A stretch of 52,224 bases of DNA, taken from Parcubacteria group bacterium (GTDB lineage: Bacteria > Patescibacteriota > JABMPQ01). A program made the translations under genes and the position numbers. The DNA lies in assembly GCA_013202585.1 (NCBI GenBank), contig JABMPQ010000006.1, forward strand, positions 1 to 52,224. Reading direction: 5' to 3'. The notes beneath the pieces are model-generated. The model made no database searches and had not been told where the DNA came from. It saw nothing but the letters and a program-made list of their open reading frames with translations. Shown piece by piece: positions 7,992 through 17,963 of the stretch (the stretch's first letter is position 1; every line of letters begins with the position of its first letter).

Positions 7992-8012
7992 CCAATCACA
8001 TAATACAACTTT

Positions 8013-8225
8013 ATGAAATCGGGCAATTCCAAAAACAAAAAAGGCTTGAAAGAAAGATTTTTAGAAATTTACGCTAATTTGCCCTTGGGAGTAAGGCGAG
8101 AAATAATATTAGTTTTGGATGATGAAGAGCCAATCACTTGGGAGGTGGCGTTTGTGGAAATAAAATCAGATACTCCTCTGAGTGCAGTTATTTTAAAGAA
8201 GTTAGAAAAATTAGAAATAATTTAA
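8013..8225 (+). CDS. Small conserved-looking hypothetical protein
   Basis: 70 residues, basic N-terminus then a block reading LPLGVRREIILVLDDEEPIT, a short acidic beta segment and a Leu/Lys-rich C-terminal helix. The function is not recognised. It is the first gene of a compact operon (6 bases to the next gene) led by a strong extended -10 promoter. Its last 21 bases recur exactly upstream of the broken BRO-like gene at 30.7 kb, suggesting that the same gene once stood there too. It may be a small regulatory or antitoxin-like protein, but this is only suggested by size and position. Confidence 0.7.
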   Translation: MKSGNSKNKKGLKERFLEIYANLPLGVRREIILVLDDEEPITWEVAFVEIKSDTPLSAVILKKLEKLEII

Positions 8226-8238
8226 TTTTCTATGCCTC
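8205..8238 (+). repeat. 34-base direct repeat, copy 1
   Basis: Exactly identical to 30674-30707. It covers the end of the 70-residue gene, its TAA stop, the spacer and the first codons (ATGCCTC) of the next gene. Confidence 0.8.
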
Positions 8239-8477
8239 GGAAAAGAAATAGAAAAAAGACAAAAAAAATATTATCTGACAAGGCAGTACGCAAGCTCGTA
8301 CTTGCTCGTTTATCAATTCTATCAAAAAATACAGTAATTTCTCTTGGTCAAAAAGGAAGTTTTACGCGCGATGAATTAGTAGAAAAAGTAGAGAAGGGCG
8401 ATGAAGTGGGAGAAAAACTGGCGGAAATTCAATTGGCTTGGTTAAGATCATTTAAAGATAAAACGGAGGAGGATTAA
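8232..8477 (+). CDS. Small basic-to-acidic hypothetical protein
   Basis: 81 residues. The first 20 are strongly basic (Arg/Lys-rich), followed by helices ending in an acidic tail. A segment LGQKGSFTRDELVEKVEKGD could be a small helical DNA- or protein-binding unit, but no family is recognised with confidence. It lies between the 70-residue gene and the caspase-like gene, with 2 bases to the latter, so the three are almost surely co-transcribed. Its end carries GGAGGAGG, which serves as the SD for the next gene. Confidence 0.65.
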   Translation: MPRKRNRKKTKKILSDKAVRKLVLARLSILSKNTVISLGQKGSFTRDELVEKVEKGDEVGEKLAEIQLAWLRSFKDKTEED

Positions 8478-8479
8478 AT

Positions 8480-9121
8480 ATGAGAATAATTGTAACTCGG
8501 CCGCAGCATGATGTTACTACCAGATATCTTGCTGGTTGGGCAGAGGAGATTATTGATTTGGCAAGAAAAAAAGGCGTTACTGTTATTGATTTGAATAAAG
8601 ATAAAGCCAATAAAGATGGTTTTGTAGGAAGAATGAAAAAAGTACAGCCCGAACTGGTATTTCTAAATGGTCATGGAGGTGATAACTGTGTTTGTGGACA
8701 TGATAATGAGCAGTTAGTTAAATCTGGAGAAAATCATAATGTTTTAAAAGATAAAGTTACTTATGCTCTGTCTTGTAATTCCGGGAAGACATTGGGAGAA
8801 CAAGTCGCTAAAAATAGGAATACAACCTATATTGGCTATAAGGATGAATTTATCTTTATTAGCGATGACCGCTATGTGACTAGACCGCTAGAGGATCCAA
8901 GAGCAAAACCGTTTAGGGAATCATCTAATCAAGTGATGATTTCTCTTCTAAAAGGCAAGACTGCGCAAGAAGCATCAGAAAAATCTAAAGAGAAGTTTAA
9001 TAAATGCCGCATAGAAATGTTATCTAGTGGTTCCGACTCTGATTCTCTACAGGCAGCGCAGTTTCTATGGTGGAATGGACGAAATCAAGTGTGTTTAGGT
9101 GATACGGAGGCTAGGTTATAA
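8480..9121 (+). CDS. Caspase/CHAT-like cysteine peptidase-fold protein
   Basis: 213 residues with a strong SD (GGAGGAGG) just before ATG. The pattern fits the caspase-hemoglobinase fold: a hydrophobic strand LVFLNGHGG puts the presumed catalytic His at the end of one strand, and VTYALSCNSGKTLGEQ puts the presumed catalytic Cys at the end of the next, followed by TTYIGYKDEF, a typical following strand. CHAT/caspase-like proteins often act as proteases in bacterial defence or programmed cell death; that role is inferred here from family and operon context. No other domain is present, so any sensor would have to be one of the two small upstream proteins. Confidence 0.6.
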   Translation: MRIIVTRPQHDVTTRYLAGWAEEIIDLARKKGVTVIDLNKDKANKDGFVGRMKKVQPELVFLNGHGGDNCVCGHDNEQLVKSGENHNVLKDKVTYALSCNSGKTLGEQVAKNRNTTYIGYKDEFIFISDDRYVTRPLEDPRAKPFRESSNQVMISLLKGKTAQEASEKSKEKFNKCRIEMLSSGSDSDSLQAAQFLWWNGRNQVCLGDTEARL

Positions 9122-9141
9122 ATTTACGTGAATTTCTGTAA

Positions 9142-9164
9142 AGCCCTTGTTTGAGGGTTTTTTT
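9142..9164 (+). terminator. Intrinsic terminator after the caspase-like operon
   Basis: AGCCCT (from 9142), a short loop and GAGGGT followed by seven T residues (9158-9164). It closes the three-gene operon that starts at 8013. Confidence 0.65.
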
Positions 9165-9265
9165 GGTGTGAAAATGCAATGTCTGTTGATTCAAGTCATT
9201 GACTAGTACGTATAAGGTAGATAGTATAGGTATGTTGGAGAAAGGCATTTTCATAAAAAGCAAAT

Positions 9266-9997
9266 ATGAATATTATTGATAATCAAGAGGAAAATGATCA
9301 AATTCCAGATTATGAAATTAGGGAGGCTTTTATGGCAGAAAAAGAAAGGATTACACAATCACATAATCAGATGAGTAAAGATTACATGGATCTTAGGATT
9401 AGGACCTATTATCATAGACAAGATTTTTTGAAACATATTATTTTAATATCTGCTGGTATTTTAAGTTTGGCTACTTTAATTAGTAAAGCTCAGCAAGGTA
9501 CTATTATATATAGTTATTTTATTATTGGCATATTTCTCTATATGGCAGTTGTTATTTTTTCTTTGTCATATATCAGATGTAAAATCGACAATGATATTGA
9601 GGGTTTAGAAAAAGATAGCTTGCGGTTCAAGGAGGTACATGAGGAGCGAAGGGGGAATGTAGAGAAATTTCTCAAGAAAAATAAACTTACACAGGAATCT
9701 TTGATTGAATATGAGAAAATAAAGGTTTCAACCCCAATGGTTCGAAGATTGATTGAAGATAAGAAGAAGATTGACACCAGCGAAAAAATGGAAGTAAAAA
9801 GAAATATGGACTATTTTCTAGAAGTTGTAATATTTCTATTTTCGTCAGCCTCTTTTTTCATGCTGATCTCATTTATAAATTTCAATATGGAAATCTACGC
9901 TATTATTTTAATGGTTATCATCATTTTTGCTTTTTCCTTCTTTGATTATACAGCTCATTTTTCGAAAGTGATTAATTTTGTTAGAAAAAAATTGTAA
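9266..9997 (+). CDS. Four-helix membrane protein of unknown function
   Basis: 243 residues. A charged, probably cytosolic N-terminus (1-52) leads to two membrane spans (about 54-72 and 78-100), a long charged and likely coiled segment (about 104-180), then two more spans (about 187-207 and 210-229). The layout resembles small membrane effectors or sensors, but no family is recognised. It starts an AT-rich block with the next three genes; the gap to the next gene is 12 bases. Confidence 0.6.
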   Translation: MNIIDNQEENDQIPDYEIREAFMAEKERITQSHNQMSKDYMDLRIRTYYHRQDFLKHIILISAGILSLATLISKAQQGTIIYSYFIIGIFLYMAVVIFSLSYIRCKIDNDIEGLEKDSLRFKEVHEERRGNVEKFLKKNKLTQESLIEYEKIKVSTPMVRRLIEDKKKIDTSEKMEVKRNMDYFLEVVIFLFSSASFFMLISFINFNMEIYAIILMVIIIFAFSFFDYTAHFSKVINFVRKKL

Positions 9998-10009
9998 TTT
10001 TACAGAATT

Positions 10010-10633
10010 ATGGATATTCCATCTATTAAAATTAGATTTGTTGAAAAATTAAAATTATACCATGATTATCTTTCTCCAAATTCCGTTTGGGAAACACAAA
10101 AAAAAGATTACTGGAAGCATGAAAAAATAATTCTTCTGTGGGCGTTTTCTGATTTACATGAGCATCTATATTCTAGCGTTGATACAAATAGGTTGTTAGA
10201 AATTTATAGTTTAGATAAGGAAGGTGAAGAAATTAATAGTTGCTCTGGTCAGTTCATTGAGCTGCAAGAAAAGATGAACATTGACTATCGTGAAGAGATG
10301 AATAACTTAAAGCAAGATTTAAAATTAAATAGTGGTAAAGAAATTGGAAAATTAAATTTTGTCAAAGGAAATTTAGTCGTAAAAGAGTTTGCAGTTGTTA
10401 CGGAGGAGGGATCTCCTAGGGATTCACAAAGTCCCCCAAAAAGAATAAGGATAAATGCAAAAGGACTACTGTTGGGAGAGATGTTGTATGAAGCACATTC
10501 GAACAATACAAAATCTTACTTCTGCAATTTTAGAATATATAAAATGGCAATGGGTTTGCTGTGGTCATTATTTTTAATCGCTATAGGTATTATTGTGATG
10601 CAATTGATTGTCTTAATTGTAGAAATTTACTAA
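10010..10633 (+). CDS. Hypothetical protein with C-terminal membrane anchor
   Basis: 207 residues. The first 175 appear soluble and mixed alpha/beta with no recognised motif; residues about 178-204 form one or two hydrophobic spans, so the protein is tail-anchored in the membrane. It follows the four-span membrane gene by 12 bases and precedes a 54-codon gene. Codon use is very AT-rich, unlike the arg and pyr genes on both sides, which suggests acquisition from elsewhere. Confidence 0.6.
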   Translation: MDIPSIKIRFVEKLKLYHDYLSPNSVWETQKKDYWKHEKIILLWAFSDLHEHLYSSVDTNRLLEIYSLDKEGEEINSCSGQFIELQEKMNIDYREEMNNLKQDLKLNSGKEIGKLNFVKGNLVVKEFAVVTEEGSPRDSQSPPKRIRINAKGLLLGEMLYEAHSNNTKSYFCNFRIYKMAMGLLWSLFLIAIGIIVMQLIVLIVEIY

Positions 10634-10661
10634 TAAAATCGCACAACAATTAATAAAATTT

Positions 10662-10826
10662 ATGGACAAAAAAGAAAAAAAAGAAAAAAATGAACCAGCT
10701 CCCTGGAATCCCATAGACATAAAAAAGTTCAATGAGAACACAAGAACCATTTCGGAAATGTATAGATCAGATCCGGAAAGGATAAAAAGGGCTGAAGGTG
10801 AAAATGATGATGACAAAAATGAATAA
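10662..10826 (+). CDS. Small charged hypothetical protein (54 residues)
   Basis: An open frame of 54 codons, MDKKEKKEKNEPAPWNPIDI at the start and a tail of Asp/Asn/Glu. It is highly hydrophilic with a Lys/Glu-rich beginning. It starts 28 bases after the tail-anchored gene and ends 8 bases before the PIN-domain gene. Its size and place are those of an antitoxin or linker peptide, but sequence alone does not show it. Confidence 0.4.
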   Translation: MDKKEKKEKNEPAPWNPIDIKKFNENTRTISEMYRSDPERIKRAEGENDDDKNE

Positions 10827-10834
10827 TAGGATGC

Positions 10835-11380
10835 ATGTCACAAAGTATATCTCTTGAAAAAAATTGGGTTTTATTTGATACATGTTCTATCTCAAAAATT
10901 TCAGTGATAGGAGATGCTACAAAGATTTTGAGTGCTGTCCAGAGTAGGATTGGTTCATTTACTCCAGCTATAACATCATTAATAAGATTTGAATATTTAA
11001 GACAGTCGAAATCAAAAGATGAATTTGAAGGATTTCGCGATTATTTGAATGATACTTATACAGAGATAGACTTATATTCGAAAGAAGATCTTTTTGATAT
11101 ATATAATTTATCCTCTGAACTTGCTTGCGTATGTCGCTTTGTGAGTTCAAATCACTACAAGCATATTTCTATGGTGGACTTTGTTCATGGTGGCTTATTA
11201 CGCAGATATCCGCGTAATTTGTTTTTGTTAACTTTTGATATAAATGATTTTCTTACTCCGATATTTAAGTTAGTCCATCATGAAAGTATTGAAGTAAACG
11301 GTAAATTAGAAATTTGGGCTTTGTATAGTTTTGATCAGAATGAATTCCATAAATATATTGATATATTCAAAAATAAATAA
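10835..11380 (+). CDS. PIN-domain-like nuclease
   Basis: 181 residues. The order of acidic residues fits a PIN ribonuclease: an Asp in LFDTCSISK near the N-terminus, a Glu in ITSLIRFEYLR, Asp in SMVDFVHGG, and Asp residues in LLTFDINDF. PIN proteins cleave RNA and commonly act as toxins or in RNA processing. No typical VapB antitoxin precedes it; the adjacent 54-residue protein or the membrane proteins could be the partners. It ends the AT-rich insertion before the arg T-box. Confidence 0.6.
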   Translation: MSQSISLEKNWVLFDTCSISKISVIGDATKILSAVQSRIGSFTPAITSLIRFEYLRQSKSKDEFEGFRDYLNDTYTEIDLYSKEDLFDIYNLSSELACVCRFVSSNHYKHISMVDFVHGGLLRRYPRNLFLLTFDINDFLTPIFKLVHHESIEVNGKLEIWALYSFDQNEFHKYIDIFKNK

Positions 11381-11400: not shown

Positions 11401-11430
11401 TTGACAACCCACCACTTTTTAACATACACT
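11401..11430 (+). promoter_or_regulatory. Promoter of the arg T-box operon
   Basis: TTGACA (11401-11406), an 18-base spacer and TACACT (11425-11430) form a sigma70-type promoter about 20-30 bases ahead of the T-box stem I. Confidence 0.6.
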
Positions 11431-11450
11431 AAACCTACCTTCACAATTTA

Positions 11451-11749
11451 GGTAAAGCTTACCGAGGAGAATATTAGGAAGTTCATCTAACTCACAGCGA
11501 GCTGGCGATAGTGCGAGTCCAGCAGTAGACGACTTTCGAACGAGCTCCACATCAGGTACGGACCGAAGAAAATCTGACTCAGTCAGATAAGTAGGATCCG
11601 GCGGGTAGTCCCCGTGGCCAAATAGCTCAATGAGTGCTGGCGGTTGTAAACCAACCAAAGGAATCAGGGTGGTACCACGGGAATTCTCTTTTTATAGAAT
11701 CCTCGTCCCTAGGTGAAATTTATTTTCATCTTAGAGACGAGGATTTTTT
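11451..11749 (+). promoter_or_regulatory. T-box riboswitch, arginine (CGA) specifier
   Basis: The T-box sequence AGGGTGGTACCACGGG lies at 11666-11681 with the TGGT bulge that pairs with a tRNA ACCA end. Upstream, stem I can be folded: TACC/GGTA (11460-11463/11555-11558), GGAG/CTCC (11466-11469/11545-11548), then GGAAGT/ACTTTC (11477-11482/11532-11537). Between the last two stems the 3' strand of the specifier loop is GAACGAG (11538-11544), the canonical GAA-codon-purine layout, giving CGA for arginine. The distal hairpin GCTGG/CCAGC with a GATAGTGCGAG loop matches the conserved stem I tip. Uncharged tRNA-Arg should favour read-through into the SerK-like, argG, argH and argF genes. Confidence 0.93.
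11701..11749 (+). terminator. T-box regulatory terminator
   Basis: CCTCGTC (11701-11707) pairs with GACGAGG (11736-11742) and is followed by a T-run. It is the conditional terminator of the T-box and ends 15 bases before the first start codon. Confidence 0.88.
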
Positions 11750-11763
11750 GTTTAGTCAAAATT

Positions 11764-12183
11764 ATGTTGCTACCAATCAAGACAATACCAATCAGCCAAC
11801 TCAAGCCCCACGAGCAGATTTGCCCGGATCACTTGCTTTGTTTACAGCAAAAGATCAGTCGTGACAGAATTTTCACGCATCCAATCGTGATTGATCGTAC
11901 GACCAAAATTATTCTTGATGGACATCATCGTTGCCAGGCACTCAAGCGTCTTGGTCATGCTAAGATTCCGTGTATTTTAGTCAACTATCGTAGCTGCCAG
12001 GTCGCAATCAAATCACGTTGTCATCAGGATATTGATAAAGAGACAGTCATCAAGCACGCCCTCCGGGGTAAGCTCCTGCGACCCAAGGCCACCAAACATT
12101 ATTTGCGGCTGGGCAGCGATCAACTAATTCCATTCGAAAAAATAAAAACCAACACCAAAATCCCTTTATCTCAATTAATTTAA
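11764..12183 (+). CDS. ParB/sulfiredoxin-fold protein, SerK/SbnI-like
   Basis: 140 residues when started at ATG 11764; an earlier in-frame ATG lies inside the T-box terminator and is unlikely. The ParB-type core reads PISQLKPHE then ILDGHHRCQALKRLG. The DGHHR variant is typical of the branch that includes free-serine kinases (SerK, SbnI) rather than chromosome-partitioning ParB, and there is no helix-turn-helix. Serine phosphorylation is therefore possible but not shown. It is the first gene under the arginine T-box and is 5 bases from argG; a link to arginine supply is unclear. Confidence 0.65.
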   Translation: MLLPIKTIPISQLKPHEQICPDHLLCLQQKISRDRIFTHPIVIDRTTKIILDGHHRCQALKRLGHAKIPCILVNYRSCQVAIKSRCHQDIDKETVIKHALRGKLLRPKATKHYLRLGSDQLIPFEKIKTNTKIPLSQLI

Positions 12184-12188
12184 AAATC

Positions 12189-13442
12189 ATGTCAAAATTA
12201 CCACCCAAATCACCTCATTGCGAGGACAACCAGGCCGCCAACAAGAAATGTCTCTTGCTCTATTCGGGCGGAGTAGATACCTCGATTTGTGTTTACTTAC
12301 TCAGTCAGTACTATGGCTACCAGGTTATCACACTAACGATTGATGTTTGCCAGGATGAGGGCGTGTGTCAAAAAATGGCGGACAAAGCGAAAAAACTCGG
12401 TGCGATCAAGACGATCGTCTATGACGCTAAGAAAGAATTCGCCGACAAGTATATTTCGCAGGTTATCAAGGCTAACGGCTTTTACGACGATCATTATCCG
12501 TTGGGAACTTCGCTCGCTCGTCCGATGCAAGCGGCGCTAGCAGTCAAAGTAGCCCAGCAAGAGAAGGTCGATGCTGTTGCTCACGGCTGCAAGGGCAGGG
12601 GAGCGGATGCCTTTCGTCTCAACATGGTTTTCAATTACTTGTTGCCGGATGATATCGAGCTGGTCTTGCCGATCAACGATTGGTGGCCGACGCGTCAGGA
12701 GGAGATCGACTTTGCCTATGCCAACAAGATCCCCGTCCCGGTGCCGCAAGACAACCCCTATAGCTATGACGACAACATTCTCTCCAATGCTATCAATTAC
12801 GGATCGATCGATGACATTAAGGAACAAGCTCCCGAAGACGCTTACAAGTGGACGGTTCCAACTCAGAAGGCGCCTGCTCAGTCGCAACAGATCCAGCTAG
12901 GATTCAAGGAGGGCTTGCCCGTGTCGCTGGACGGCCAGAAGATCAGCCTCGACAAGCTAATGGTCAAACTCAATCAGCTGGGCGGTAAACATGGTGTTGG
13001 CCGTATGGATATGATTGAAAATGGACTTTACGGTAATAAATTTCGTTGGGTCTATGAAGCGCCGGCAGCTGAGATCTTGATCACAGCTCACCAGGAGCTG
13101 GAGAAACTAGCCCTCCCCGCCGAGACGCTCTACTTCAAGCAGGAAATAGCTGACAAAAAATGGGTCAAGCTGGCATACAAGTCGTTCTTTTACAGTCCGC
13201 TGACCAGCGCGCTGATGAAGTTGATCGACGAGACGCAGCAATATGTCACCGGCAAGGTCACTCTTCAGCTCTACAAAGGTAAAGTTTCGGTGATAAAGCG
13301 TGTCTGCGCCAATACCCTGACTCAGCTTGATCCCAAGGACTTAGTGTCTCAGGAAACAATGGACAAGGTGCCCTATGGTTTTGAGGAATATGCTTTCGCT
13401 AGCAAACATGCGGAGGTAATTGGCCAGCATTTTAGTAATTAA
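12189..13442 (+). CDS. argG: Argininosuccinate synthase
   Basis: 417 residues. The ATP pyrophosphatase P-loop SGGVDTS is at 26-32, followed by the expected VAHGCKGRGADAFR block (normally HGCTGKGNDQVRF) that binds citrulline/aspartate. It joins citrulline and aspartate using ATP. It follows the SerK-like gene by 5 bases and precedes argH by 9, so it is under the arginine T-box. The GKGNDQ segment is replaced by GRGADA, a mild divergence, but overall length and order fit the family. Confidence 0.93.
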   Translation: MSKLPPKSPHCEDNQAANKKCLLLYSGGVDTSICVYLLSQYYGYQVITLTIDVCQDEGVCQKMADKAKKLGAIKTIVYDAKKEFADKYISQVIKANGFYDDHYPLGTSLARPMQAALAVKVAQQEKVDAVAHGCKGRGADAFRLNMVFNYLLPDDIELVLPINDWWPTRQEEIDFAYANKIPVPVPQDNPYSYDDNILSNAINYGSIDDIKEQAPEDAYKWTVPTQKAPAQSQQIQLGFKEGLPVSLDGQKISLDKLMVKLNQLGGKHGVGRMDMIENGLYGNKFRWVYEAPAAEILITAHQELEKLALPAETLYFKQEIADKKWVKLAYKSFFYSPLTSALMKLIDETQQYVTGKVTLQLYKGKVSVIKRVCANTLTQLDPKDLVSQETMDKVPYGFEEYAFASKHAEVIGQHFSN

Positions 13443-13451
13443 TTAATCACT

Positions 13452-14912
13452 ATGAGTAAAAAACAAAGTAACATATTCTGGAATGATGGCGAGAACGCTG
13501 ATTTTGGCAAATACGCGGTCGAGTACGCCGCTGGTGAGGACATAGTGCTAGACAAGGAGCTGGTGCAATACGAATGCCAGGTCAACAAGGCGTATATGTC
13601 GATGTTGGCTAAGCAGGGGATATTGAGTCAGGCGCAGGTCGACAAAATCATCACTGTGTTGGATGAGATCGTGCACAAAGATCAGCAGGGTGAGTTTGTG
13701 TTGGATCAGAGCCTCGAGGACGTCCACTCCAATGTCGAAAAGTACGTTATCGATAAGCTAGGCGTAGAGATAGGAGGGAATCTACGCCTCGGGATGGCGC
13801 GCAATGACCAAGTCTATACTGATTTGCGGTTATATATGAAGGATCAGTTGGTGATGACGGTAAAGGCGGCGATCGATACCGCTCGGGCGCTGACTGATGT
13901 CGCTGGTAAGCACCTTAATACGATCATGCCAGGCTATACTCACTTGCGCATTTCCCAACCCATCACTTACGCGCACTACTTGACCAGCAAGATCTATCAT
14001 TTATTGGATGATGTGGATAACTTGCAGCATGATTTTACTCAGGTTGATCGGTGCCCATTGGGGATTTTCGAAATGGCCGGAACTCATCTTGATATTGACC
14101 GTCAGTATTTAAGCGATAAGCTAGGTTTTAGCGGCAGCACGGGTCATAGTCTCTATACCGCTAACACGCGCGGTGAGCTAGAGGCGAAGGTGATTTCTTC
14201 CCTGAGCATGCTAGCGCTACATATCAGGCGCACCATGAATGAGGTTATAATCTTCTCCACCCACGAATTTGGTCTACTGGAGATCGACGATCTCTACGCT
14301 ACTGGTGGCACGGCTCAACCTAACCTCAAAAATCCGGACACGCTTGAAGTGCTGCGGGCTAATATGGCCAAGCTGCCGAGCTTGTATCAAGAGGCGATTT
14401 CGATCATGGACATGTTGCCTTCTGGTTTTATGCGTGATACGCAGCAAACAAAGCCATTAATATTCCAGGCCTTTGCCACGATGTTGCCGGGCTTGGCGAT
14501 GTTTAAAGGAGTGATGGTAAGTCTTAAGGTCAATAAAAAGCGCCTGGCCGAGCTGGCCGAGCAAAATTTTGCCACCGCCCCGGACATGTGTATTCAAATC
14601 GCGCTCAAGACGGGGGTGAGCTTTCGCGAGGCGTATAAAGTGATGAAATATCTGATAAAAGATGGTATATTGAATGAAAGTTTAGCGGAGCTAACACCAG
14701 TTTTGTTGTTAGCTGCTGGCCAGAAAGTGCTGGGTAAAAAATTAGTCATGGCTCAGAAAGAAATTGCTGAGATAGCGGATGCCAAGAGTAGTGTCCAGGC
14801 TCATACTAGTCAAGGTGGACCGGCGCCGACGGAAGTCAAAAAAATGCTGACAGAGATTGGCGTCAAGTTACAAGAATGTGAAGAGTGGGTTAAAAAAGTT
14901 AGTAATAAATAA
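13452..14912 (+). CDS. argH: Argininosuccinate lyase, divergent
   Basis: 486 residues, family length about 460. Conserved features are EDVHSNVE (90-97), ARNDQVYTDLRLY (116-128) and GYTH with His164, the usual catalytic-region histidine. The superfamily signature loop, normally GSSxMPxKxNPD, reads GGTAQPNLKNPD at 285-296: the two serines are Gly and Thr, and Met-Pro is Gln-Pro. The catalytic Ser is thus absent as such, with Thr287 a possible substitute. The protein lies between argG and argF with short gaps, which supports lyase activity on argininosuccinate releasing arginine and fumarate. A different lyase substrate cannot be excluded. Confidence 0.85.
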   Translation: MSKKQSNIFWNDGENADFGKYAVEYAAGEDIVLDKELVQYECQVNKAYMSMLAKQGILSQAQVDKIITVLDEIVHKDQQGEFVLDQSLEDVHSNVEKYVIDKLGVEIGGNLRLGMARNDQVYTDLRLYMKDQLVMTVKAAIDTARALTDVAGKHLNTIMPGYTHLRISQPITYAHYLTSKIYHLLDDVDNLQHDFTQVDRCPLGIFEMAGTHLDIDRQYLSDKLGFSGSTGHSLYTANTRGELEAKVISSLSMLALHIRRTMNEVIIFSTHEFGLLEIDDLYATGGTAQPNLKNPDTLEVLRANMAKLPSLYQEAISIMDMLPSGFMRDTQQTKPLIFQAFATMLPGLAMFKGVMVSLKVNKKRLAELAEQNFATAPDMCIQIALKTGVSFREAYKVMKYLIKDGILNESLAELTPVLLLAAGQKVLGKKLVMAQKEIAEIADAKSSVQAHTSQGGPAPTEVKKMLTEIGVKLQECEEWVKKVSNK

Positions 14913-14927
14913 TTAAATTAGATAAAA

Positions 14928-15881
14928 ATGAAGAAACCAAGACACGTGATTTCCCTGAAAGATTTTACGGCTGAGGAGATAAAAGAAATATTAGCCAAGG
15001 CAGCTGAGATAAAAGCTAATCCGGAGAAATACGCTGAGACTCTGAAAGACAAGACACTAATCATGCTTTTTCAGAAATCTTCTACTCGTACCCGGCTATC
15101 GTTTGAGGCGGGCATGACGCGACTGGGTGGTCACGGAATTTTCTTAGATCAGAAGACTTCGCAATTTGCTTTAACCGATTTTAGTGATGAGATCAAGGCC
15201 GTGTTGCGGTTTGGCGATATTTTGATGTTTCGGGCGATGCAGGCGGCGGACGTGGAGAAAGCAGCTGAAGTTAGCCACATTCCAGTAATCGACGCTTGTA
15301 GTGAGAAATATCATCCTTGCCAGACTTTGGGCGATTTATTAACAATGTCTGAAGATGCCGGCGGGCTAGATAAGATCGAGAAAGTAGCTTGGCTAGGAAT
15401 TCAGAATAATGTTTCTAATACCTTAAAGCTGGCCTGCTCTAAGCTAGGTATTGAGGTTAGCATCATCGCGCCGGAAGTAAATGAGGCTAGTGTGGATGAA
15501 GAGCTTAACAAAATAGCTGATAAAACAGGACTGGTCAAAGAAACTCTTGATCTAAAGGAAGGCCTAGAGGGAGTGCGTTATGTTCACACTGACACCTGGA
15601 TGGATATGGAATATTTTGAGGATGGTAAGGTCAAAGACGAATTCAAAGATGTCTACAAAAAGCGTAAAGAATTATTCAAGCCTTATCAACTCAATGCTAA
15701 GTTGTTGGAAGATAATTGTCCGGAAGCTAAGGTAATGCATTGTATGCCTTGCCATGTTGGTTATGAGATCAGCCGTGATGCTATCGATCACTCTAATTCA
15801 TTAATTTTCGATCAAGCCGAGAATAGAATGCATGCCCAAAATGGCCTGATGGTGTGGCTGATGGAGCAGATGAAAAAATAA
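14928..15881 (+). CDS. argF: Ornithine carbamoyltransferase-like transcarbamylase
   Basis: 317 residues. STRTR (52-56) and HPCQ (129-132) bind carbamoyl phosphate, NNVSNTLK matches the OTC asparagine loop, and HCMPC (271-275) matches the OTC HCLP motif with its reactive Cys. The ornithine loop, usually DxWxSMG, reads DTWMDME (222-228), so the SMG part is changed. Its position next to argG and argH makes ornithine the likely substrate, giving citrulline from carbamoyl phosphate. A modified amino-acid substrate (for example an acylated ornithine) is the alternative to consider. Confidence 0.85.
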   Translation: MKKPRHVISLKDFTAEEIKEILAKAAEIKANPEKYAETLKDKTLIMLFQKSSTRTRLSFEAGMTRLGGHGIFLDQKTSQFALTDFSDEIKAVLRFGDILMFRAMQAADVEKAAEVSHIPVIDACSEKYHPCQTLGDLLTMSEDAGGLDKIEKVAWLGIQNNVSNTLKLACSKLGIEVSIIAPEVNEASVDEELNKIADKTGLVKETLDLKEGLEGVRYVHTDTWMDMEYFEDGKVKDEFKDVYKKRKELFKPYQLNAKLLEDNCPEAKVMHCMPCHVGYEISRDAIDHSNSLIFDQAENRMHAQNGLMVWLMEQMKK

Positions 15882-15902: not shown

Positions 15903-17033
15903 ATGCTAAAAGAACTTCCGCTAGTGATTGATCCGCACGTGCATTTTCGAGTGCCGGGAGGGGAACATAAAGAAGATTGGATCACTGCTTCTCGGGCTGC
16001 TTTGGCCGGCGGGGTAGGGCTGGTTTTTGATATGCCGAATACTAGTCCGTCAACTGATTCGCAGGAGCGTCTGACTGAGAAAAAACAACTTATCGATAAG
16101 CAGATAGCTGAATCGGGCTATCCTCTGCAGTATAAATTGTATTTTGGAGCAACGGCTGATAATTGCGAGGAAATTAAAAAGTTACAGCCGACAGAAGTAG
16201 CCGGAGTGAAGTTATTTATGGGTTCTTCTACTGGTGATTTATTAGTAGACAAAGATGAGGATATTGCCAAAGTATTTCAGGCGGCCAAAGAAGCGGACTT
16301 GGTAGTGGCGATACACGCTGAGGATGAGGAGATGATAAAAGAGGCCGCCGGGAGATTCAAAGATGAGAACAAATTTAGTGTTCACTCGCAGGTGCGCAAC
16401 AAAGAAGCGGCGGCCAAAGCAGTCGAGCGAGCGATTAATTTGAGTCGCGAAGTGGGCAATCGGTTATATATTTGCCATGTTTCCTCTAAGCTCGAGCTGG
16501 ATTTGATTCGGGAGGCAAAAAAAGAAGGATTGCCAGTATATGCCGAGGTCTGCACCCATCATTTATTTTTCACGACAGCAGATTATGAGCGGTTAAAAGG
16601 GAAAGTGAGGATGAATCCACCGGTGCGTGATCAAGAAGATATTGATGCTTTGTGGCAGGGGATAAGCGATGGCATAGTTGATACATTAGGTACTGACCAT
16701 GCTCCGCACACGCTTGAAGAAAAAAACCAAAATGTCTGGAACACTCCTTCGGGAGTACCAGGGATTGAGACTTTATTACCGTTGATGTTGAATAGCGTTA
16801 ATCAGGGGAAAGTTAGTTTGGAGAAACTAGCTGATCTGATGCATAATAATGTCGTAAAGATTTTTGGACTAGAGCCGCCGAGCGGAAAGACAATAGTAGA
16901 TATGGATTTAGCTAAAGAGGTGCGAGACGAAGATTTGCAAACTAAATGTGGTTGGTCGCCCTATGCCGGGATGAAGTTGAAGGGGTGGCCGGTGAAAGTA
17001 GAGCTGGATGGTAAAGAATATAATTGTGAATAA
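15903..17033 (+). CDS. pyrC: Dihydroorotase
   Basis: 376 residues, an amidohydrolase-fold enzyme. It begins almost at the metal motif (His12 and His14 in DPHVHFR), so the small N-terminal beta-sandwich strand segment of longer class I dihydroorotases is nearly absent. Lys103 in GVKLFMGSSTG is the likely carboxylated lysine; His138 (IHAED), His192 (CHVSS) and Asp265 (TDHAPH) complete the two-metal site. It cyclises carbamoyl-aspartate to dihydroorotate. It follows argF by 21 bases, joining the arg and pyr halves of the operon. Confidence 0.94.
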   Translation: MLKELPLVIDPHVHFRVPGGEHKEDWITASRAALAGGVGLVFDMPNTSPSTDSQERLTEKKQLIDKQIAESGYPLQYKLYFGATADNCEEIKKLQPTEVAGVKLFMGSSTGDLLVDKDEDIAKVFQAAKEADLVVAIHAEDEEMIKEAAGRFKDENKFSVHSQVRNKEAAAKAVERAINLSREVGNRLYICHVSSKLELDLIREAKKEGLPVYAEVCTHHLFFTTADYERLKGKVRMNPPVRDQEDIDALWQGISDGIVDTLGTDHAPHTLEEKNQNVWNTPSGVPGIETLLPLMLNSVNQGKVSLEKLADLMHNNVVKIFGLEPPSGKTIVDMDLAKEVRDEDLQTKCGWSPYAGMKLKGWPVKVELDGKEYNCE

Positions 17034-17039
17034 AAAAAT

Positions 17040-17963
17040 ATGAACACTAAAATCACGTTTTTAGGCAAAGAATTCGCCAATTCAATCGTGACCGCTTCGG
17101 GTATTTTAGGGGTAACGGGCGCCACTATGGTCAATAATGTCAAAGAAAAGGGAGTCGGGGGAGTAACCATGAAGTCAGTTTCCGTCGAGCCACGCGAGGG
17201 TCATCCCAATCCAACCATTACCACGGGCGAACATTTTATGATCAATGCGGTTGGCCTTTCAAATGCCGGAGTAGAGAATAGCGTTAAGGAAATCAAGTAT
17301 TATAAAGAGAACTGTCAGGCGCCGTTGATTGCCAGCGTATTTGCTGGTGATATCAAAGAATTCGGCGAAGTAACGAAGAAAATTAGCGAAGCCAGCCCTG
17401 ATTTTATTGAAGTAAATATTTCCTGCCCGAACGTTGAGGATGAATTTGGCAAACCCTTTGCCGCTGATCCACAACTCGCGACTGCAGTGACGAAGATTGT
17501 AAAAGAAAACACTGATATTAAAGTGATCGTGAAATTATCGCCCAATGTGGAAAATATCGGTAAGATTGCCCAAGCAGTAGAGGCGGCCGGAGCAGATGCG
17601 ATTTGTGCTGTTAATACTTTCAATGGCACTCTGATCGATGTTCGCACCCGTGAATTTGTCTTACACAATAAATTTGGCGGGGTTTCTGGTCCAGCTATCA
17701 AGCCGATGGCCGTCAAAGCGGTTTATGATATCAGCCAGGCGGTCAAGATTCCGATTATTGGTACCGGGGGAGTGACCACCGGACAAGATGTGCTCGAAAT
17801 GATGCTAGCGGGCGCAACTCTAGTTGGGGTTGGCTCGGGTGTCCACTTCGGTGGCGGCAAGGATGTATTTAAAAATATGATGGGGGAGATTAAGGAGATT
17901 ATGGAAGAAGAGGGGATTGAGGATTTGATGGAGATGATTGGTGGGGTAAAGTCTGATGATTAA
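17040..17963 (+). CDS. pyrD: Dihydroorotate dehydrogenase, class 1B catalytic subunit
   Basis: 307 residues. NISCPN places the catalytic Cys129, which marks class 1 enzymes (class 2 has Ser); Lys45 in MKSVS and GTGGVTTGQD bind FMN and phosphate as in the family. A pyrK homolog one gene downstream indicates type 1B, which passes electrons through FAD and an iron-sulfur cluster to NAD. The start is 6 bases after pyrC. Confidence 0.95.
   Translation: MNTKITFLGKEFANSIVTASGILGVTGATMVNNVKEKGVGGVTMKSVSVEPREGHPNPTITTGEHFMINAVGLSNAGVENSVKEIKYYKENCQAPLIASVFAGDIKEFGEVTKKISEASPDFIEVNISCPNVEDEFGKPFAADPQLATAVTKIVKENTDIKVIVKLSPNVENIGKIAQAVEAAGADAICAVNTFNGTLIDVRTREFVLHNKFGGVSGPAIKPMAVKAVYDISQAVKIPIIGTGGVTTGQDVLEMMLAGATLVGVGSGVHFGGGKDVFKNMMGEIKEIMEEEGIEDLMEMIGGVKSDD

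Follow-up and report, generated by a model that had tools for sequence, protein, structure and literature searches.

T-boxes have been described as mainly elements of the Firmicutes and Actinobacteria, and were tallied in 2008 in Firmicutes, Actinobacteria, Chloroflexi, Deinococcus and two Proteobacteria (PMC2494555). The TBDB contains 23,535 T-boxes; among its arginine specifiers CGA makes up 1% and CGC 52% (PMC7778990). A literature search yielded no report that joins T-boxes with Patescibacteria, Parcubacteria or CPR, although its coverage was partial. Entries in databases may exist as well, and the lack of a report is weak evidence. One paper on riboswitches and Patescibacteria was set aside, as it concerns synthetic tools.

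The arginine T-box found in front of argG, argH and argF in the stretch of DNA analysed here (52,224 nucleotides, termed the window) is genuine, and judging from its sequence it is very probably functional in the host. We hold with strong confidence that the leader belongs to the class I (transcriptional) T-box riboswitches and has tRNA-Arg(UCG) as its ligand.

Host genome

The host genome is a draft of 1.22 Mb in 78 contigs and is 79% complete. A search for ribosomal protein uL30 gave no match in the host. In all, this protein was not found in 37 of the 38 genomes searched, the host included, and it is present in 13 of 14 controls. The relatives of the host have genomes of 0.5–2 Mb and fall into very many families. 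A search of a collection of named genomes with ArgG, meant to place the host, gave two archaeal loci only. The lack of uL30, the small genomes and the many families together form what we take to be the picture of the Patescibacteria (CPR), and on these grounds we infer that the host belongs to this lineage.

The single genome among the 38 that has uL30 is G025 (2.0 Mb; uL30 at G025:C5:55747–55899), which is unexpected for a Patescibacterium. Several T-boxes are present in it too.

The T-box leader

A covariance search with the Rfam T-box model RF00230, which the sequence-only reading had proposed as a check, shows a full-length match (model positions 1–219; 62.6 bits, E = 2.4e-13). This is the only T-box found in the genome by the search. 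The score is lower than the curated gathering cut-off of 93 bits, and an Rfam scan at the gathering level gives no match. It should be noted that the 93-bit bar is a database threshold and not a biological feature: of the 5 control genomes that have T-box matches, 2 clear it, as do 13 of the 380 genomes from the phylum, and it excludes most T-boxes of the phylum. At E ≤ 0.001 no RF00230 match is present in the other nine controls (E. coli, Caulobacter, Synechococcus, Bacteroides, Thermotoga and four archaea), thus false matches at that level are few. The fold of the leader is more stable than those of all 100 shuffled sequences (z = −3.2).

Apart from the T-box, no RNA family scores convincingly on the leader in an Rfam E-value scan. 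Matches of miRNA, snoRNA and KRAS models to the terminator hairpin were rejected; they are marginal and represent chance matches to a perfect hairpin.

Table 1. Features of the leader and of the genes that follow it (positions in the window)
Feature	Position	Strand	Basis
Likely promoter: TTGACA, 18-nt spacer, TACACT	11401–11430	+	consensus scan, 10/12, best plus-strand site of the region; inferred from position
T-box leader	11458–11713	+	RF00230 full-length match
Stem I, closing helix GGAG/CUCC (11466–11469 with 11545–11548)	11466–11548	+	Rfam alignment and free folding concur
Stem I distal tip, conserved, AGCGAGCTGGCGATAGTGCGAGTCCAGC	11496–11523	+	aligned to RF00230 tip
Specifier loop GAA-CGA-G	11538–11544	+	read from sequence; RF00230 alignment
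Specifier codon CGA (arginine), GAA before, G after	11541–11543	+	aligns with CGA and CGC of relatives' arginine T-boxes
Stem II, purine/S-turn motif CCGAAG...AAGTAGG	11559–11600	+	RF00230 alignment, fold
Stem IIA/B region, F-box-like CCGTGG	11601–11620	+	RF00230 alignment
RRRNG (GAGTG)–Stem III (GGTTG/CAACC)–AA motif	11632–11663	+	base identities; motif definition from PMC7778990
T-box motif AGGG-UGGU-ACC-ACG	11666–11679	+	base identities
UGGU acceptor-binding sequence	11670–11673	+	variable base U, discriminator A predicted
Antiterminator: A1 AGGG/CCCT, bulge TGGTACC, long A2 ACGGG.ATTC/GAAT.CCTCGT	11666–11710	+	predicted fold, A1 co-variation
Intrinsic terminator AATCCTCGTC/GACGAGGATT, 10 bp, six T	11698–11749	+	predicted fold, base identities
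SerK/ParB-like ORF, 139 aa, putative first regulated ORF	11764–12183	+	NCBIfam NF053625, E = 2e-16, partial, below cut-off
argG, argininosuccinate synthase	12189–13442	+	TIGR00032, above cut-off
argH, argininosuccinate lyase	13452–14912	+	TIGR00838, above cut-off
argF, ornithine carbamoyltransferase	14928–15881	+	TIGR00658, 272.4 bits, just below equivalog cut-off of 280.85; PF02729/PF00185
pyrC and pyrD	15903–17963	+	TIGR00857 (pyrC), PF01180 (pyrD)

The features are shown in Table 1. The sequence-only reading had named a T-box motif, a conserved Stem I tip, a GAA-CGA-G specifier loop, a terminator and the downstream genes argG, argH and argF, and each of these is present. A perfect TTGACA −35 box begins at position 11401, where that reading also began; the first ATG downstream of the leader is at position 11764. 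The motif formed by RRRNG, Stem III and AA is also complete (GAGTG ... AA).

The A1 strand has its partner, CCCT, at positions 11707–11710. The strand at positions 11698–11710 is common to the antiterminator and the terminator, which makes the two hairpins mutually exclusive. In predicted folds the isolated antiterminator has −11.1 kcal/mol versus −24.9 kcal/mol for the terminator. Since the terminator fold is much stronger and a strand is shared, termination would be the default and antitermination would need help.

The Stem I K-turn (UGA/GAG) is absent, its positions being deletions in the alignment to the Rfam model. The 5′ strand of the specifier loop reads AUUA in place of AGUA in the RF00230 alignment and departs from the AGUA/GAA loop-E pattern. 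The K-turn and loop-E are typical of T-boxes but not universal among them, and some T-boxes have no K-turn. The loss of the K-turn, the AUUA strand, the score below the cut-off, the lack of an encoded CCA in the tRNA gene and the lack of conservation within the genus (see below) were counted as points against a class I T-box for tRNA-Arg(UCG).

Cognate tRNA and use of CGA codons

ARAGORN was run on the loci around 34 matches to the tRNA model in the host genome and shows tRNA-Arg genes with anticodons UCG, GCG and CCU. A tRNA-Arg(ACG) was not seen by ARAGORN in this incomplete genome, thus CGA codons are presumably read by the UCG species.

The sequence-only reading had called for a tRNA-Arg with anticodon UCG and discriminator A. 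The genome has such a gene at G000:C34:6845–6916 (GCCCTTG...CGAGGGC-A), and the U of the leader UGGU would pair with A73 of this tRNA. The CGA specifier fits both tRNA-Arg(UCG) and the arginine pathway genes argGHF. No CCA is encoded after the tRNA gene; it would be added post-transcriptionally.

That CGA is rarely used, as was also stated, applies to T-box specifiers but not to codons of the host, as CGA makes up 28 of the 161 arginine codons counted in twelve genes of the window. In the genes predicted to be under T-box control (positions 11764–15881), CGA accounts for 2 of 41 arginine codons, versus 26 of 120 in the genes around them (p = 0.016). This low usage is suggestive only; it comes from a single unplanned test on a small sample and possibly reflects foreign gene composition.

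Genes downstream of the leader

The leader lies in front of argG, argH and argF as the sequence-only reading described, with the qualification that a SerK-like open reading frame, which it did not list, sits before argG. Gaps of 5, 9 and 15 nt separate this open reading frame, argG, argH and argF; those between argF and pyrC and between pyrC and pyrD are 21 and 6 nt, respectively. A sequence scan displays no convincing terminator-like site between argF and pyrC, and pyrC and pyrD are possibly in the same transcript as the arginine genes. Thus arginine shortage may also raise expression of the pyrimidine genes.

The SerK/SbnI/ParB-like protein consists of the N-terminal half only and has a DGHHR motif. 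In G044 a homologue with 38% identity follows a Cys-type T-box (UGC, UGGA) at a distance of a few kb, and this locus holds genes for PLP enzymes of cysteine/methionine metabolism.

The segment of the window between pyrI and the T-box (positions 8000–11380) is AT-rich, with a GC content of 0.32 versus 0.44–0.46 on the flanks, and contains open reading frames, of which two have no Pfam match. It looks like an inserted island.

T-boxes in related genomes

RF00230 matches are present in 20 of 58 relatives and, in a sample of 380 genomes from the phylum, in 127. With matches in about one third of the sampled genomes, a T-box is typical of the phylum and no oddity in the lineage. Of the two grounds on which the locus had been called notable, the rarity of the CGA specifier (1% of TBDB arginine specifiers, PMC7778990) is borne out and the presence of a T-box in this lineage is not unusual.

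Specifiers of the relatives were read by eye, and several of the weaker RF00230 matches were unreadable. In the phylum T-boxes examined, the specifier usually fits the downstream gene. Examples are TGG before trpE-type genes (L036, L037), CAC with a UGGG bulge before a histidyl-tRNA synthetase gene (L127), and CCU before two class II synthetases (L105, L115), whose prolyl type was read from Pfam domains. Among arginine cases, CGC is found before argS (L107) and argG (L112), and AGA before argG (L110) and argS (L117). A T-box close to argG occurs in at least nine of the genomes that encode ArgG (the host, G013, G044, G061, G209, G226, G297, G372 and G377).

A complement of A1 is present downstream in 69 of 73 phylum T-boxes. 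It lies in the expected register in 54 of the 73, versus 1.3% when the A1 sequence of a different T-box is substituted. In seven arginine cases the discriminator is matched by UGGN, six by Watson-Crick pairing (U/A in G000, G013, G115 and G297; C/G in G237 and G246) and one by a G-U wobble (U/G in G226). The specifier, A1 and UGGN tests do not depend on the window locus, and these sequence comparisons support a probable T-box function across the group.

Two loci (L117 at G237:C14 and L119 at G246:C4) display a T-box with an AGA specifier and UGGC directly upstream of genes for tRNA-Arg(UCU), (GCG) and (UCG), with discriminator G where this was read. The tRNA genes are followed by an open reading frame with an arginyl-tRNA-synthetase domain, which in L119 has a B3/4 domain ahead of it. 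Shortly behind the terminator lies a TATAAT-like sequence, which may be the tRNAs' own promoter. A third locus (L120, G301:C8:65404–65684 and downstream) has a T-box, with UAC (Tyr) as specifier and with UGGU, directly before a tRNA-Tyr(GUA) gene.

A wider proposal, which we put forward only tentatively, is that Patescibacteria widely use T-boxes to sense amino acids, in genomes that otherwise have few regulators, and that this use has traits peculiar to the lineage, namely arginine switches without a K-turn, CGA specifiers and T-boxes before the sensed tRNA genes (three tRNA-Arg and argS in G237 and G246; tRNA-Tyr in G301).

Alternative explanations

The leader might be a decayed T-box, i.e. 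one that descended from a T-box and no longer responds to tRNA, with a terminator that merely lowers expression constitutively. The score below the cut-off, the lost K-turn and the change from AGUA to AUUA speak for such decay. However, the pairing elements on which function depends (the specifier, the UGGU, both antiterminator helices, the competing terminator and the RRRNG–Stem III–AA motif) are all intact, and the cognate tRNA-Arg(UCG) fits at both contacts. In addition, the T-box of a relative (L051 in G013) likewise has no evident UGA/GAG K-turn. Decay is considered highly improbable.

A T-box for another tRNA would result if the specifier were one base off, reading GAG (Glu) or ACG (Thr). 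The genes downstream are argG, argH and argF, and in the arginine T-boxes of relatives the aligned position is taken by CGA or CGC, both of which speak against such a shift, although the TBDB permits a frame shift by one (PMC7778990) and tRNA-Glu(CUC) and tRNA-Thr(CGU) are present in the host genome. The tRNA-Thr(CGU) moreover has discriminator U, with no fit to UGGU. We regard a shifted specifier as barely credible. The terminator alone would also serve other forms of arginine control, e.g. a leader peptide, an arginine-binding RNA or a protein repressor. The T-box core, the specifier and the matching tRNA would then be coincidences, and the T-box is the one RNA family that scores convincingly here, so that control of this kind is given very little credence.

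Proposed mechanism and significance

In the class I T-box scheme that we propose for tRNA binding, switching and operon extent, RNA polymerase would start downstream of position 11430 and transcribe Stems I–III, and the CGA specifier would pair with the UCG anticodon of tRNA-Arg. When tRNA-Arg(UCG) is uncharged, its free ACCA end would pair with the UGGU bulge and stabilize the weak antiterminator, which would allow readthrough into the serK-like open reading frame, argG, argH and argF, and probably pyrC and pyrD. The end of a tRNA charged with arginine could not pair; the much stronger terminator would form and transcription would stop at the T run.

The presence of T-boxes in about one third of the sampled genomes of a phylum of reduced, host-dependent bacteria is relevant to the question of whether the mechanism is ancient or has spread sideways. 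These T-boxes also make it possible to read from sequence the amino acids that such cells monitor. Those few members of the phylum that make arginine appear to guard the arginine pathway repeatedly by a T-box.

Relationship to known systems

The single genome of the same genus that was compared has an ArgG with 40% identity and no T-box match, thus the genus does not conserve the arrangement. Genomes with a clear ArgG match are scattered (31 of 380), and the matches outside the host show about 28%–43% identity to the host ArgG. This pattern suggests that the operon and its leader may have been subject to lateral exchange.

The T-box of G013 (L051), a divergent relative within the phylum, shares with the leader the CGA specifier loop TTTCGAACGAG, the UGGU bulge, the long A2 and the presence of argH and argG downstream. 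The tRNA-Arg(UCG) of G013 has discriminator A followed by CCA. The gene order differs (acetyltransferase-argH-argG), the G013 ArgG is 41% identical to that of the host, and no SerK-like open reading frame is found in the G013 genome.

With the arginine T-boxes of the TBDB the leader shares an arginine specifier and a discriminator matched by UGGN; it differs in its CGA specifier (1%), versus CGC in 52% (PMC7778990). With the class I T-boxes of RF00230 it shares a Stem I with distal tip, a GAA-NNN-R specifier loop, Stems II, IIA/B and III, the UGGN bulge and an antiterminator that overlaps the terminator. It differs from them in its score below the curated cut-off, the missing K-turn, AUUA for AGUA and the long A2 helix. 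The kind of T-box is already well known, and its context is a phylum in which T-boxes are common yet little discussed.
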